Virus record (IMG/VR): IMGVR_UViG_3300037502_001854
Location: 1-20,622 of that record
Direction: 5' to 3' (one strand)
DNA length: 20,622 nucleotides
Source of the DNA: a virus
This document shows positions 9,593 through 18,715 of this stretch, one piece after another. The notes beneath the pieces were generated by a model. It saw only the letters and a list, made by a program, of their open reading frames with translations. It searched no databases and was not told the DNA's origin. The translations under genes and the position numbers were made by a program. The first letter of the stretch is position 1. The number at the start of each line of letters is the position of its first letter.

Positions 9593-10201
9593 ATGGCAGA
9601 TCAAGACATCCTCATTGGGCCAGGTCGTTTGTGGCGCGCGCCGCTTGGCACGGCAAATCCCGATGAATCCACCGTGGCATATGGTGCGGCGTGGGGCGGC
9701 AGTTGGGTAAATATCGGCGATATTCTCGAAGGCAATCCGGTTGTGTTGTCTATGTCTGAGGAATTTACCGACGTTCACACCGAGCAGTATGTGGCCGCGC
9801 GCAACAGCGTGCGCACGCGTCGCGAGATTATGATTAAAGCGACGCTGGCTGAACACACCGTGGCAAACTTGGAGATGCTGTTGTCTAGCACGGCTGCCAC
9901 CACTGCGGCGGCGGGCGGCGGGCAAAAGGGGTTCTCCGAAATCAAATTTGGGTCTGAGTCTGCGGTTGATATGTACAAATGGGGCATCGAGGCATTGCGG
10001 GTTGACAGCGCAGGCAACAATCAGCCGGTGCGTTGGTTCCTGCATCGGGGTTATATCAAACTTGCTGGCGATGTCAGCTACGCTAAACAGAATCCAACCG
10101 GCCTGCCGATTGAAATCAAAATCTTGGCCGACGCTACGCAGGCTGCTGGTCAGGAACTCGGCATTCTGCACATTGTCACGGCTGCGGCGACTGCGACCTA
10201 A
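9593..10201 (+). CDS. Major tail protein (tail tube subunit)
   Basis: This 202-residue protein is the predicted tail-tube monomer. It is beta-rich with GPGRLWRAPLGTA near the N-terminus, SWVNIGDILEGNPVVLSMSE, TRREIMIKATLAEHTVANLE and a C-terminal GLPIEIKILADATQ. This order of strands, helix and strand, and its place just before the tail chaperones, fits siphovirus tube proteins. GGAG (9582-9585) lies 7 nt before ATG 9593. Its TAA shares a base with the next start (TAATG). A low-complexity stretch (SSTAATTAAAGGGQKG) near residues 103-118 is probably a surface loop. Confidence 0.88.
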   Translation: MADQDILIGPGRLWRAPLGTANPDESTVAYGAAWGGSWVNIGDILEGNPVVLSMSEEFTDVHTEQYVAARNSVRTRREIMIKATLAEHTVANLEMLLSSTAATTAAAGGGQKGFSEIKFGSESAVDMYKWGIEALRVDSAGNNQPVRWFLHRGYIKLAGDVSYAKQNPTGLPIEIKILADATQAAGQELGILHIVTAAATAT

Positions 10202-15692: not shown

Positions 15693-17357
15693 ATGTCCAC
15701 AATTTATCATGATCCAATTGTCATTGGCGCGCCTGCCAATGCAGCCACTATCAATGCTCCGTTGGGAGAGTTGGATTCAGGCATTGTAACCGTAGACACG
15801 CGCGTTAGCAACATTATCGCCAGCAGCGGAACCTCGTCTACTGAGGTTGTTGACGCGCGAACAGCGAATTACACCTCGTTAAAAGACCGGCTGGACGATA
15901 TCGCGCTTAGTAGTAACATTTTTTTCGTTGACCCATTATTTGAGCATGAGCCAACCGCCAAACGATTTACAACAATTTCCCAGGCCATGCTTGCTGCATC
16001 CGGCAACGAGACAATTATTATTGCCCCTGGAATTTATGCGGAAAACGTTGTCCTGCCAGCGAATAACATTTCTATTTATGGTGGCGGGCAACCTGCATTT
16101 GACGCCTCATCTGGGCGATTAGTCGGCGGCACAATTATTCGTGGGCGGTTGCGCTGTGGCACTCGTACCGGTTTGACAATATCCAATCTTGGCGTTGATT
16201 TGGTTGGCGTTAACTCTGTCGATTGCATTGAGTCAACATTTTCTGGCAGCGTTGACGCGTGGAGAAAATTTACAAATTTGACATTGCTCGGCAATGGCAG
16301 TGACCCAAGTTCGTCACCGTTGGCCTACACGCCTCACGGCCTATATGGAGATGGAAATTATTTGACAATTGACAATGTGCATGTAATTAGATGCCATCAT
16401 TCCATTGCCATTCATGGCAGTTATGTGAATATCAGTAACTGCATTTTTGAGCGATGCACTGGAAGTGCCGTTATTGTCAAATCCAAAGGGACCGCCGATG
16501 TTCTGCATGTAAATATTCAGAATATCGTTATTCGCGGCAATTCGAGCCTCGGCACATGGCATCGTGGCGGGCCAATAGTCGTCCAGTCTGAGGATGGACG
16601 CCTAACTGAATTTGTCAATGTTTCTAACGTCACAGCGTCTGAGTGCATTAACGGAGTTGTGCAAGTTACTCAATCGTCTCCTGCTGGCACAGTTAGGAAT
16701 GTGACATTTACCAATATTGTCAGTGAAAGAAACCGCGATTTGGCAGCCGTCGGTGATTTTTGGATTAAAACCGGAACGCGCATCACATTTGTCAATTGTA
16801 AATCATTGGCCCGTGTCGGCGGTCATGGATTCAACAATGATGCAACGGGAGATGCGACACTGGTATATGTGTATGACTGCACCTCAGATTCATCAGGCGC
16901 AGGAGTTAGCAACGGCACATTTACCGCACTGGAAATCAATCGCTCAACAAGCGCTACGACAAATCAGCGCAATCAATTCACAGTTGCGCAGGGCATGACC
17001 ATCACAAAATCAGTAAATAACAATACTGCAACTGACATTGCAGATTTAACGTCCGCTAGCGCGGCATTTATTTCTGGAGCTGTTCTTGCATCCATTGAGG
17101 TTTCTGGAGGCTCGAATTTGTCTGCGGCATTATATGCGGTTGTATGGGGATATTCGACTGAGGCGGCTACTGTTTTGTCGTCGCAATTGTTTGGGCATAC
17201 AACATTAACAATGACCGTTGTTGCATCCGTTTCTAATAAACGTGTGCGTTTCACATTGACGCAGGTAAATCCTGACGCAGTGGCCTGTACTGTCCGGCTT
17301 AGTGTTTTTCCGATTAGCGCCTGGTGGGACAATGTAATGACGTTGACTGCGTTGTAG
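15693..17357 (+). CDS. Tail spike / receptor-binding protein with right-handed beta-helix
   Basis: This 554-residue protein is the probable host-recognition or polysaccharide-processing spike. Residues 1-70 form an attachment segment ending in TANYTSLKDRLDDI, a motif seen in other phage fibres. From about 77 to 420 the sequence has the pectate-lyase-like start (FFVDPLF, then RFTTISQAMLAA, ETIIIAPGIYAENVVL) followed by regularly spaced Ile/Val/Asn rungs (ISNLGVDLVG, FTNLTLLGNG, IDNVHVIRCHHSIAIHG, ISNCIFERCTGSAVIV). Residues about 430-554 form a separate beta-rich C-terminal domain. Catalytic residues cannot be assigned. AGGAGG (15682-15687), 5 nt before the ATG, is the best Shine-Dalgarno in the virion block, consistent with high expression. 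It is the last rightward gene. Confidence 0.87.
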   Translation: MSTIYHDPIVIGAPANAATINAPLGELDSGIVTVDTRVSNIIASSGTSSTEVVDARTANYTSLKDRLDDIALSSNIFFVDPLFEHEPTAKRFTTISQAMLAASGNETIIIAPGIYAENVVLPANNISIYGGGQPAFDASSGRLVGGTIIRGRLRCGTRTGLTISNLGVDLVGVNSVDCIESTFSGSVDAWRKFTNLTLLGNGSDPSSSPLAYTPHGLYGDGNYLTIDNVHVIRCHHSIAIHGSYVNISNCIFERCTGSAVIVKSKGTADVLHVNIQNIVIRGNSSLGTWHRGGPIVVQSEDGRLTEFVNVSNVTASECINGVVQVTQSSPAGTVRNVTFTNIVSERNRDLAAVGDFWIKTGTRITFVNCKSLARVGGHGFNNDATGDATLVYVYDCTSDSSGAGVSNGTFTALEINRSTSATTNQRNQFTVAQGMTITKSVNNNTATDIADLTSASAAFISGAVLASIEVSGGSNLSAALYAVVWGYSTEAATVLSSQLFGHTTLTMTVVASVSNKRVRFTLTQVNPDAVACTVRLSVFPISAWWDNVMTLTAL

Positions 17358-17389: not shown

Positions 17390-17427
17390 CCCTCCCCCAG
17401 CGCGCAAAAAACCCTCCCCCAGCGCGC
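17390..17427. repeat. 16-bp direct repeat CCCTCCCCCAGCGCGC, two copies
   Basis: Identical copies lie at 17390-17405 and 17412-17427, separated by AAAAAA. The second copy is the left arm of the strong terminator. The first could pair with the same right arm as an alternative fold, or could be the remnant of a duplicated or partly deleted palindrome. The surrounding GC-rich string resembles dispersed intergenic palindromes of Chloroflexota (inference). Confidence 0.8.
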
Positions 17428-17446
17428 GCTGGGGGAGGGTTTTTTT
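17406..17446. terminator. Bidirectional intrinsic terminator between converging operons
   Basis: CCCTCCCCCAGCGC and GCGCTGGGGGAGGG form a perfect palindrome centred at 17425/17426. An A-run lies on the left (17406-17411) and a T-run on the right (17440-17446), so it can terminate both the rightward virion transcript and the leftward csx16 transcript. Its place between convergent genes supports that role. Confidence 0.92.
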
Positions 17447-17465: not shown

Positions 17466-17852
17466 TTAGAGATTGCCGGCGAGGGCGGCGGCGGCGGCGT
17501 TTGCCTTGTCTGCTGGCGGGCCAGCAAACGCAAACCAGGACAATTCACGGGCGGCTTCCGCCACCGCCGCCCATTGAGGCTCGGTGGCAACAACGTACCA
17601 CCGAATGGACGCTCCGGCAGCCTCCATTTCCGCCGCCGTCAAATCCTGCCCCCGCTGTTCGGGGCGCAGCACCATGTCGATGCTGCCCACGGCGGCGGCG
17701 TGAACCGCCAAATGCAATGGCAGCGCGCCAATCACGCGCTTCCCTGCAATTTGCGTCGCGTCACCGACGTGGCTCAGCACGTCGCCAACGATTCCCTGGC
17801 TGCGCAGCCATTCGACTGCGCCAGCGTGACGACTAACGATAATGGTGTTCAT
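17466..17852 (-). CDS. csx16: Csx16 (VVA1548) family protein; candidate anti-type III CRISPR ring nuclease
   Basis: This 128-residue protein shows the Csx16 pattern in order: IIVSRHAGAVEWLRSQGI (residues 4-21), DVLSHV (24-29, H28), GKRVIGALPLHLA (37-49, H47), and EQRGQDLTAAEMEAAGASIR (65-84). Csx16 is normally an accessory gene of type III CRISPR loci; as I recall it has been assigned ring-nuclease activity, cleaving the cyclic oligoadenylate alarm signal. Residues about 88-128 extend past the usual end and finish in an Ala-rich tail. ATG 17852 has GGAG 8 nt upstream, and it is the last gene of a leftward operon. No cas1, cas10 or repeat array is in the window, so it is a phage accessory gene. 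The family call is strong; the anti-CRISPR role is inference. Confidence 0.87.
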   Translation of the reverse strand: MNTIIVSRHAGAVEWLRSQGIVGDVLSHVGDATQIAGKRVIGALPLHLAVHAAAVGSIDMVLRPEQRGQDLTAAEMEAAGASIRWYVVATEPQWAAVAEAARELSWFAFAGPPADKANAAAAALAGNL

Positions 17853-17861
17853 TGTTCTGCT

Positions 17862-17915
17862 CCTTGTGTGTTGGTTGTGGTTGCGGTGGGCAGTTTTGCG
17901 CCATGCCCAGGGCGG
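17862..17915 (-). repeat. 54-nt leader repeat, copy A (upstream of csx16)
   Basis: Identical over 54 nt to 18210-18263. Read leftward it has a TGGGCA/TGCCCA hairpin (17887-17892 with 17904-17909), then a CA-rich unstructured stretch ending in the ribosome-binding site of csx16. A small ATG reading frame inside it runs into the csx16 start region out of frame with csx16. Confidence 0.95.
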
Positions 17916-17922
17916 TCGTGGA

Positions 17923-18198
17923 TTATTCAGCGTCGGGGTCGGCATCGCTGCCCACCAGGTAGCCGACACGCTCAACCAGAAGAGAGGAAAACCGAATACC
18001 GTCATCATAATCAGACGGTATTGTCACCCACACCCATCCGTCATACATGACGGTAACTAATGCTGGGTGTGAGTTGCCGTCGGCGTCCTCGCACGGCTCC
18101 CAGGTCAAGACGTGGGCGATCAGGTTCTCCAGCGTGTCGGGGCCGGTCTCCCCGACAATAATGTTTGCGCTGTTAGTAATCATAATGTTGGTGTTCAT
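17923..18198 (-). CDS. Small acidic protein of unknown function, paralogue of the gene upstream (copy 1)
   Basis: I do not recognise this 91-residue protein. It starts MNTNIMITNSANIIVGETG and has TWEPCEDADG in the middle, then WVWVTIPSDYDDG and ERVGYLVGSDADPDAE at the end. It has no membrane segment or signal peptide and is strongly acidic, with a predicted mixed alpha/beta character. The same blocks (ITNSANIIVGETG, TWEPCEDADG, ERVGYLVGSDA) recur in the neighbouring 92-residue protein, so the two arose by tandem duplication. The start ATG 18198 has GGAG about 8 nt upstream; an ATG 54 nt further upstream (18252) is in frame but lies inside the shared leader. Cotranscription with csx16 makes a counter-defence role possible, by association only. 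Confidence 0.82.
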   Translation of the reverse strand: MNTNIMITNSANIIVGETGPDTLENLIAHVLTWEPCEDADGNSHPALVTVMYDGWVWVTIPSDYDDGIRFSSLLVERVGYLVGSDADPDAE

Positions 18199-18209
18199 TG
18201 TTCTGCTCT

Positions 18210-18263
18210 CCTTGTGTGTTGGTTGTGGTTGCGGTGGGCAGTTTTGCGCCATGCCCAGGGCGG
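18210..18263 (-). repeat. 54-nt leader repeat, copy B (between the two paralogues)
   Basis: Identical to 17862-17915. It sits immediately upstream of the 91-residue gene. Just beyond the repeat, toward the start codon, this copy has two extra bases (CTCTCC instead of CTCC on the plus strand). That shifts the frame of the leader ATG relative to copy A and argues that the repeat is not conserved as coding sequence. Confidence 0.95.
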
Positions 18264-18268
18264 CGGGG

Positions 18269-18547
18269 CTATTCGTCGGCTTCGGCCTCGGCTTGGGCGT
18301 CACTGCCCACCAGGTAGCCGACCCGCTCGCACAATTCGGATGCGCGTTTCCACCCGTCTTCGTGATGGGCGGGGATTGCCACCCACACCCCACCATTGTA
18401 ATCTGTGTAGACATGCGGCTTAGACTCCTCGCCGTCTGCGTCTTCGCACGGCTCCCACGTCGCGACGTAGGCAATCACATTCGCCAACGTGTCGGAGCCG
18501 GTCTCCCCGACAATGATGTTTGCGCTGTTGGTGATAATGATGTTCAT
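18269..18547 (-). CDS. Small acidic protein of unknown function, paralogue of the gene downstream (copy 2)
   Basis: This is the first gene of the leftward operon. The 92-residue protein starts MNIIITNSANIIVGETG, continues through TWEPCEDADG, VWVAIPAHHEDGW and ERVGYLVGSDA, and ends in an acidic tail (AQAEAEADE). It is unrecognised, soluble and acidic. Its start ATG 18547 follows AGGAG by about 8 nt, and the -10 box lies only about 50 nt upstream, so it should be well expressed. Its leader shares only the last 25 nt or so (the ribosome-binding segment) with the other two leaders. Against copy 1, the middle (about residues 41-70) is most diverged while the N-terminal and C-terminal blocks are conserved. 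Confidence 0.82.
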   Translation of the reverse strand: MNIIITNSANIIVGETGSDTLANVIAYVATWEPCEDADGEESKPHVYTDYNGGVWVAIPAHHEDGWKRASELCERVGYLVGSDAQAEAEADE

Positions 18548-18582: not shown

Positions 18583-18619
18583 CTGCCCGTGATTACATTA
18601 TAACACAACGTGCGGGCAG
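18583..18619. promoter_or_regulatory. Inverted repeat CTGCCCG / CGGGCAG flanking the -10 box; candidate operator
   Basis: CTGCCCG (18583-18589) and CGGGCAG (18613-18619) are perfect inverted 7-mers, 23 nt apart. Their centres are about 30 nt apart, close to three helical turns. One arm covers the spacer next to -35 and the other the start-site region. That layout suits a dimeric repressor or autoregulation, but the arms are short. Confidence 0.45.
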
Positions 18620-18625
18620 TGTCAA
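18597..18625 (-). promoter_or_regulatory. Consensus sigma-70 promoter with extended -10 for the csx16 operon
   Basis: Read leftward: -35 TTGACA (18625-18620), a spacer of exactly 17 nt (18619-18603), and -10 TATAAT (18602-18597) preceded by TGT, an extended -10. Both hexamers are perfect. The predicted start of transcription is near 18589. It drives the 92-residue gene, then the 91-residue gene, then csx16. Confidence 0.93.
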
Positions 18626-18673: not shown

Positions 18674-18715
18674 AAAAAAGCGCACACTGGAAGAAGGCGA
18701 ATCCTCCAGTGTGCG
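18674..18715 (-). terminator. Leftward intrinsic terminator after the four-gene cluster
   Basis: CGCACACTGGA (18681-18691) pairs perfectly with TCCAGTGTGCG (18705-18715) around a 13-nt loop. Reading leftward it is followed by TTTTTT (18679-18674). It lies 35 nt beyond the 18751 stop and ends the upstream leftward transcript just before the strong csx16-operon promoter. Confidence 0.88.

Follow-up and report, generated by a model that had tools for sequence, protein, structure and literature searches.

Why would a phage carry csx16, a gene that in cells is usually found beside type III CRISPR genes? The question is raised by a 20,622-base virus record in IMG/VR, the whole of which was analyzed and is called the window below; it carries a large terminase and a portal gene as well as csx16 (Table 1). 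No RAMP gene (PF03787) was found in the whole record, and searches with known Cas10, Cmr, Cas6, Csx1, and Cas1 proteins gave no match in the window, in agreement with a preliminary description of this DNA that had reported a phage-borne Csx16 without type III genes. The gene is located on a mobile element without cognate CRISPR genes, which is one criterion by which anti-CRISPR genes are recognized. The patterns described below make it probable that this phage Csx16 is an early-expressed ring nuclease that would degrade cyclic tetra-adenylate (cA4) and thereby act against type III CRISPR.

Table 1. Features of the window discussed in the text, in order of position.
Feature	Position	Strand	Description
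Large terminase subunit (phage hallmark)	497..2056	+	Pfam TerL_ATPase/TerL_nuclease
Portal protein (phage hallmark)	2329..4422	+	Pfam Phage_portal, E 3e-107
554-aa tail protein, convergent with csx16	15693..17357	+	PHROG 4577 tail protein, E 4e-6, residues 16-69
Bidirectional terminator, tail gene/csx16 boundary	17390..17445	.	Inverted repeat of 20 nt, perfect, bordered by A and T tracts
csx16	17466..17852	-	128 aa; Cas_VVA1548/Csx16 domain at residues 5-88; extra C-terminal helices 91-127
56-nt leader before csx16	17860..17915	-	Identical to the copy at 18208-18263
91-aa acidic protein	17923..18198	-	Net charge -14; paralogue of the 92-aa gene
56-nt leader before 91-aa gene	18208..18263	-	Second identical copy, from repeat analysis
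92-aa acidic protein, first gene of the unit	18269..18547	-	Net charge -14; 65% identity to the 91-aa protein
Sigma-70 promoter	18597..18625	-	Perfect TTGACA-17-TATAAT with an extended -10 element (TG); precedes the three-gene unit
Intrinsic terminator ending the upstream minus-strand operon	18681..18715	-	14-pair stem, then CTTTTTT

The open reading frame is real and on the minus strand, with an ATG at 17852, a stop at 17466–17468, 128 codons, an AAGGAG ribosome-binding site upstream, and every motif quoted in the preliminary description (e.g. SRHAGAVEW, SH, VIGALPLHL). The profile search that had been proposed there matched Pfam PF09652 (Cas_VVA1548/Csx16) at E 1.3e-20 and 73.8–74.3 bits over profile positions 2–90/91, compared with a gathering cut-off of 25 bits, a match far beyond chance. 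The score against NCBIfam TIGR02620 (CRISPR-associated Csx16) was 45.7 bits, 0.65 below the cut-off of 46.35, and the protein is therefore filed as a variant of the Csx16 family and not as a typical CRISPR-associated Csx16. In an alignment of 27 viral and 16 cellular sequences, residues R8, H9, G42, L44, P45, and R67 were invariant, all of them being kept in the window protein, position 7 was always serine or threonine, and H28 was retained in 24 of the 27 viral and all 16 cellular sequences. Between relatives for which it was computable dN/dS was 0.15–0.41, values that show purifying selection. A C-terminal extension of about 40 residues, with helices at 91–110 and 114–127 in the AlphaFold2 model, had been thought possibly specific to phages. 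Extensions of 30–40 residues do recur among viral members, in 8 of 27 as compared with at most 19 residues in the 16 cellular proteins, but they are not universal there. An ankyrin relationship of viral Csx16 was considered and rejected, there being no Pfam ankyrin repeat and only matches to short pieces: a viral Csx16 profile gave 203 matches to PDB sequences, and among the 60 listed nearly all were designed ankyrin-repeat proteins, spuriously, because the conserved LPLHLAA (window protein residues 44–50) mimics the ankyrin-repeat consensus.

The occurrence on a phage is not isolated. When IMG/VR was scanned with a pattern derived from a ten-member alignment, csx16 was found in 26 other viral contigs, all 26 passing the Pfam cut-off and none with a RAMP gene found; a search for further phage-borne copies in viral metagenomes had been proposed in the preliminary description. 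Among the 28 viral records searched there were terminase matches in 15 and portal matches in 8, with the window and a close relative, G033, counted in both. Clustering of all genes from the 28 viral loci left csx16 as the only gene common to more than three, the loci being otherwise unrelated; among the neighbors are genes for a RecT-like protein, a primase, an N4-like RNA polymerase, and a PAPS reductase-like protein. The N4-like RNA polymerase is encoded at 9755–11788 of contig L018, and csx16 thus reaches N4-like phages; the placement of that polymerase gene in the csx16 cluster itself was dropped as a chance match over 41 residues. Two of the phage proteins (L029, 3–422, and L035, 5106–5471) have an N-terminal zinc-ribbon-like stretch with paired cysteine motifs. 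AcrIII-1 (PF08960) was found neither in the window record nor in the other 27, as companion or as replacement, which its rarity alone predicts. The only named phages found to carry csx16 were the methanogen viruses Drs3 and PhiF3.

Cellular copies were sampled in three phyla, with matches in 13 of 299 Pseudomonadota genomes (12 above the cut-off), 1 of 395 genomes in the phylum of a deltaproteobacterial genome, and 3 of 393 in the phylum of a methanogen genome. Flanks were searched with the same Cas10, Cmr, Cas6, Csx1, and Cas1 probes, and type III genes were present beside csx16 at 14 of 17 sampled cellular loci compared with 0 of 34 mobile-element loci (Fisher p 5e-10, kinship being ignored). 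The cellular loci where no type III gene turned up in the sequence examined were L006/L047 and L053 (L092), which are nevertheless labelled type III in the tree, and the methanogen locus L100, which is outside it. In two loci (L005, 1340–3406, and L007, 2819–4885) Csx16 is fused as the N-terminus of a 688-aa protein that contains phosphoesterase/HD-like sequence, and this fusion gene adjoins Cmr6-like and CARF genes. A maximum-likelihood tree of 49 rows, unrooted and with the long branches of PhiF3 and Paenibacillus placed unsurely, put the window protein within a clade of 22 rows, all from mobile elements (support 93/86). The mobile or type III label changed twice on this tree as opposed to 13.7 times with shuffled labels, and an earlier tree from which the extra plasmids were left out gave a like picture with four changes. 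A single clade of all type III-linked rows was rejected (p-AU 0.003), because a methanogen/deltaproteobacterial pair groups with the methanogen viruses.

The AlphaFold2 model of the window protein (pLDDT 91.6, pTM 0.77) had no Foldseek match at E <0.001 in the PDB or BFVD, an absence that is no evidence for a new fold. The top PDB row in structural comparison was AFV3-109 (2j6b), an AcrIII-1 homologue, at Z 4.8 and rmsd 2.6 over 70 residues, which is weak in that Z below 8 may reflect a common arrangement; it was followed, also weakly, by cA4-bound Cam1 (8t65, Z 4.8), Csx1-Crn2 with cA4 (8y7g, 4.4), and AcrIII-1 (6scf, 4.3), with more cA4-binding CARF proteins and ring nucleases in the lower rows. 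For a cellular Csx16 Hoikkala et al. 2025 (PMC12409355) report 2J6B as the best PDB match, also at Z 4.8, and a CARF-like fold derived from the Rossmann fold. The weak structural match is made more credible both by this clustering of cA4 binders and by a top match and Z equal to those published. In the aligned ranges model residue 1 falls on Crn2 487 and AcrIII-1 39 so that, provided the first nine residues align without a gap, H9 falls on H495 and H47 respectively, the published active-site histidines of these ring nucleases; on the model, H9 is a candidate catalytic residue. The preliminary description had supposed a fold unlike that of AcrIII-1 and hence an independent route to the same counter-defense. 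This is not supported, since the closest matches, weak as they are (Z 4.3–4.8), are to the AcrIII-1 family and to cA4-bound CARF and Crn2 domains. Sequence profiles had no significant homology (hhalign against the AcrIII-1 profile, probability 0.4% over 25 columns), so common descent is only a possibility.

The retention of the invariant residues, purifying selection, and the lack of type III genes on these elements together make an anti-type III ring nuclease the best explanation. In the mechanism that we propose, a strong promoter of the host type would drive transcription of csx16, probably shortly after infection, and its product would be a small, probably dimeric, CARF-like protein. It would bind cA4, the alarm produced by host Cas10, and cut it to short linear products, such that cA4-activated effectors (Csx1 or Can1-2) would stay off and the phage would survive the type III CRISPR response. 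We infer early expression, the dimer, the rate of cleavage, and the anti-CRISPR role, and take the cA4 substrate from the one cellular Csx16 with published activity, which Hoikkala et al. 2025 (PMC12409355) showed to be a cA4-specific ring nuclease that does not degrade cA3 or cA6. Since AcrIII-1 works about 60 times faster than Crn1, the viral Csx16 is predicted to be a fast enzyme.

The main alternative, which we consider unlikely, is that viral Csx16 serves as a sponge for cyclic nucleotides or acts on another ring (other cyclic oligoadenylates or CBASS signals), countering signalling defense without cutting cA4. Type III-linked Csx16 has a conserved R-G-[AG]-R-Y stretch next to the LP[VL]xL motif, and 23 of the 27 viral proteins lack this region by a deletion of 3–4 residues, as do most members of the 22-row clade. 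Because the viral type is thus without a segment of the characterized cellular kind, its substrate or rate may differ. Precedents also exist, in that Csx15, a related candidate, is reported to be a good cA4 sponge and a slow nuclease (PMC13148439), and Crn4, a ring nuclease found in phages too, also takes cA3 and cA6 (PMC12830947). However, all of the residues invariant in Csx16 are kept in the window protein, the candidate catalytic H9 included, and the published specificity is for cA4.

Expression signals around csx16 are consistent with an autonomous unit. The gene closes a three-gene minus-strand unit, after the 92-aa and 91-aa genes, and the perfect sigma-70 site before the unit is the only one in the 20.6 kb window, with 0 in 100 shuffles; this promoter argues for a bacterial host. 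Although csx16 is adjacent to a phage tail gene, as had been described, the two are convergent and belong to separate transcription units with a strong bidirectional terminator between them (folding energy -54.9 kcal/mol, z -4.8). Such a layout, with its own promoter and strong terminators, resembles that of phage morons, and expression would be early or constitutive. The identical 56-nt leaders before the 91-aa gene and csx16 make it look as if csx16 had been placed in a duplicated cassette. Searches of Pfam, NCBIfam, and PHROG gave no match for the 91-aa protein; the 92-aa protein, likewise without a family match, had no match in phages, and its structural model was of low confidence (pLDDT 62.7). 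These tandem-duplicated acidic proteins (17923–18547, minus strand) may be further anti-defense proteins.

A moron-like unit could also be a tool of lysogeny or superinfection, in which a prophage csx16 dampens the host type III alarm and thereby lets the lysogen tolerate the prophage or a mis-triggered Cas10, with no role in lytic growth. Autonomous promoters and terminators are seen in morons expressed from prophages, and stand-alone csx16 is carried by plasmids, which are long-term residents, of Allomeiothermus silvanus, Deinococcus proteolyticus, and Paenibacillus polymyxa and by an archaeal plasmid. RAMP genes were not found on these plasmids, although the same search detected them on Allochromatium and Aeromonas plasmids, where csx16 is linked to type III. 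Inspection of the window and of the 13.8 kb that lies upstream in G033 recognized no integrase, however, and we regard a lysogeny role as quite improbable. The A. silvanus plasmid, pMESIL02, has csx16 at three places in two genes: Csx16-like modules occur in a 671-aa protein (L083, 8998–11013) and, in tandem, in a 261-aa protein (L012, 7992–8777), and the plasmid also has conjugation genes but lacks RAMP genes.

The window record is a fragment, and it was extended only in the direction away from csx16. Its relative G033 is 91–92% identical and adds 13.8 kb upstream, reaching phage replication genes, with an overlap that stops short of the csx16 end. Judged from translation, G033 also encodes a 766-aa fusion of a helicase with a DNA-methyltransferase-like domain (L062, 2016–4316) and has DnaB-like and ThyX-like genes. 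Megablast of the window against named phages gave no match, and no relatives were found via a neighboring 166-aa gene. It is very improbable that host or prophage DNA was mis-binned here and that csx16 is an ordinary accessory of a type III locus just outside the contig: the right end does lie only 2.8 kb past csx16, and at 3 of the 17 sampled cellular loci the sequence examined likewise shows no type III genes, but terminase, portal, and further head-tail genes form a single long block, G033 continues as phage, the window protein falls inside the mobile-element-only clade, and type III genes were detected at none of the mobile-element csx16 loci.

To return to an anti-type III ring nuclease as the reading best fitting these data, phage Csx16 as such is already published, and AcrIII-1, AcrIII-2, and Crn4 have been the subject of related proposals. 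Hoikkala et al. 2025 (PMC12409355) count Csx16 in two phage genomes, in one sentence, and these are probably Drs3 and PhiF3. Beyond the open literature, preprints excluded, what is new is a mobile-element subfamily, distinct and widely distributed, that is cleanly split from type III loci, together with the self-contained expression unit in the window phage and carriage by plasmids. Many more mobile elements than the two named methanogen viruses may disarm type III defense via Csx16, and a distinct subfamily present on several plasmids as well as on 26 or more additional viral contigs would amount to a broad counter-measure to cA4 signalling. A bolder possibility, which we offer tentatively and would put at somewhat under an even chance, is that Csx16 is mainly an anti-defense family of mobile elements, with a distinct short-loop subfamily used as an anti-type III weapon in several unrelated kinds of phage and in plasmids bearing conjugation genes, and that type III loci have captured Csx16 at least twice as an off-switch. 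Such capture has been proposed likewise for AcrIII-1 and Crn2. If true, the mobile-element subfamily would turn round the question of whether host or parasite invented the enzyme.

Compared with known systems, the window protein is closest to Csx16 of type III loci, which it resembles over the whole Pfam domain and in S/T7, R8, H9, H28, G42-x-L-P, and R67-G-x-[DE]-L. It differs in its position away from type III genes, its 40-residue helical tail, its membership of a separate mobile-element clade, and the absence of the 3–4-residue R-G segment that is present in nearly all type III-linked Csx16 sampled. The Csx16 proteins of the Methanobacterium viruses Drs3 and PhiF3 are phage-borne and annotated as Cas_VVA1548/Csx16, like that of the window, but their hosts are archaeal and in the tree they fall beside cellular sequences of methanogens and deltaproteobacteria, outside the window clade. 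AcrIII-1/Crn2 (DUF1874, PF08960) is alike in expected activity and role, in the weak structural match, and in a candidate catalytic histidine at the corresponding position ahead of a helix, whereas there is no PF08960 match in the window record, no significant profile similarity, and a longer N-terminus in AcrIII-1. In the open literature, preprints excluded, the characterized viral ring-nuclease anti-CRISPRs are AcrIII-1 and AcrIII-2 only. AcrIII-2, a viral SAVED ring nuclease, and Crn4 of phages and plasmids are likewise encoded by mobile elements, and removal of type III cyclic oligoadenylates has been proposed or shown for them (PMC12751052, PMC12830947), but they belong to families unrelated to Csx16: AcrIII-2 is a SAVED domain, and the fold of Crn4 is a separate one.
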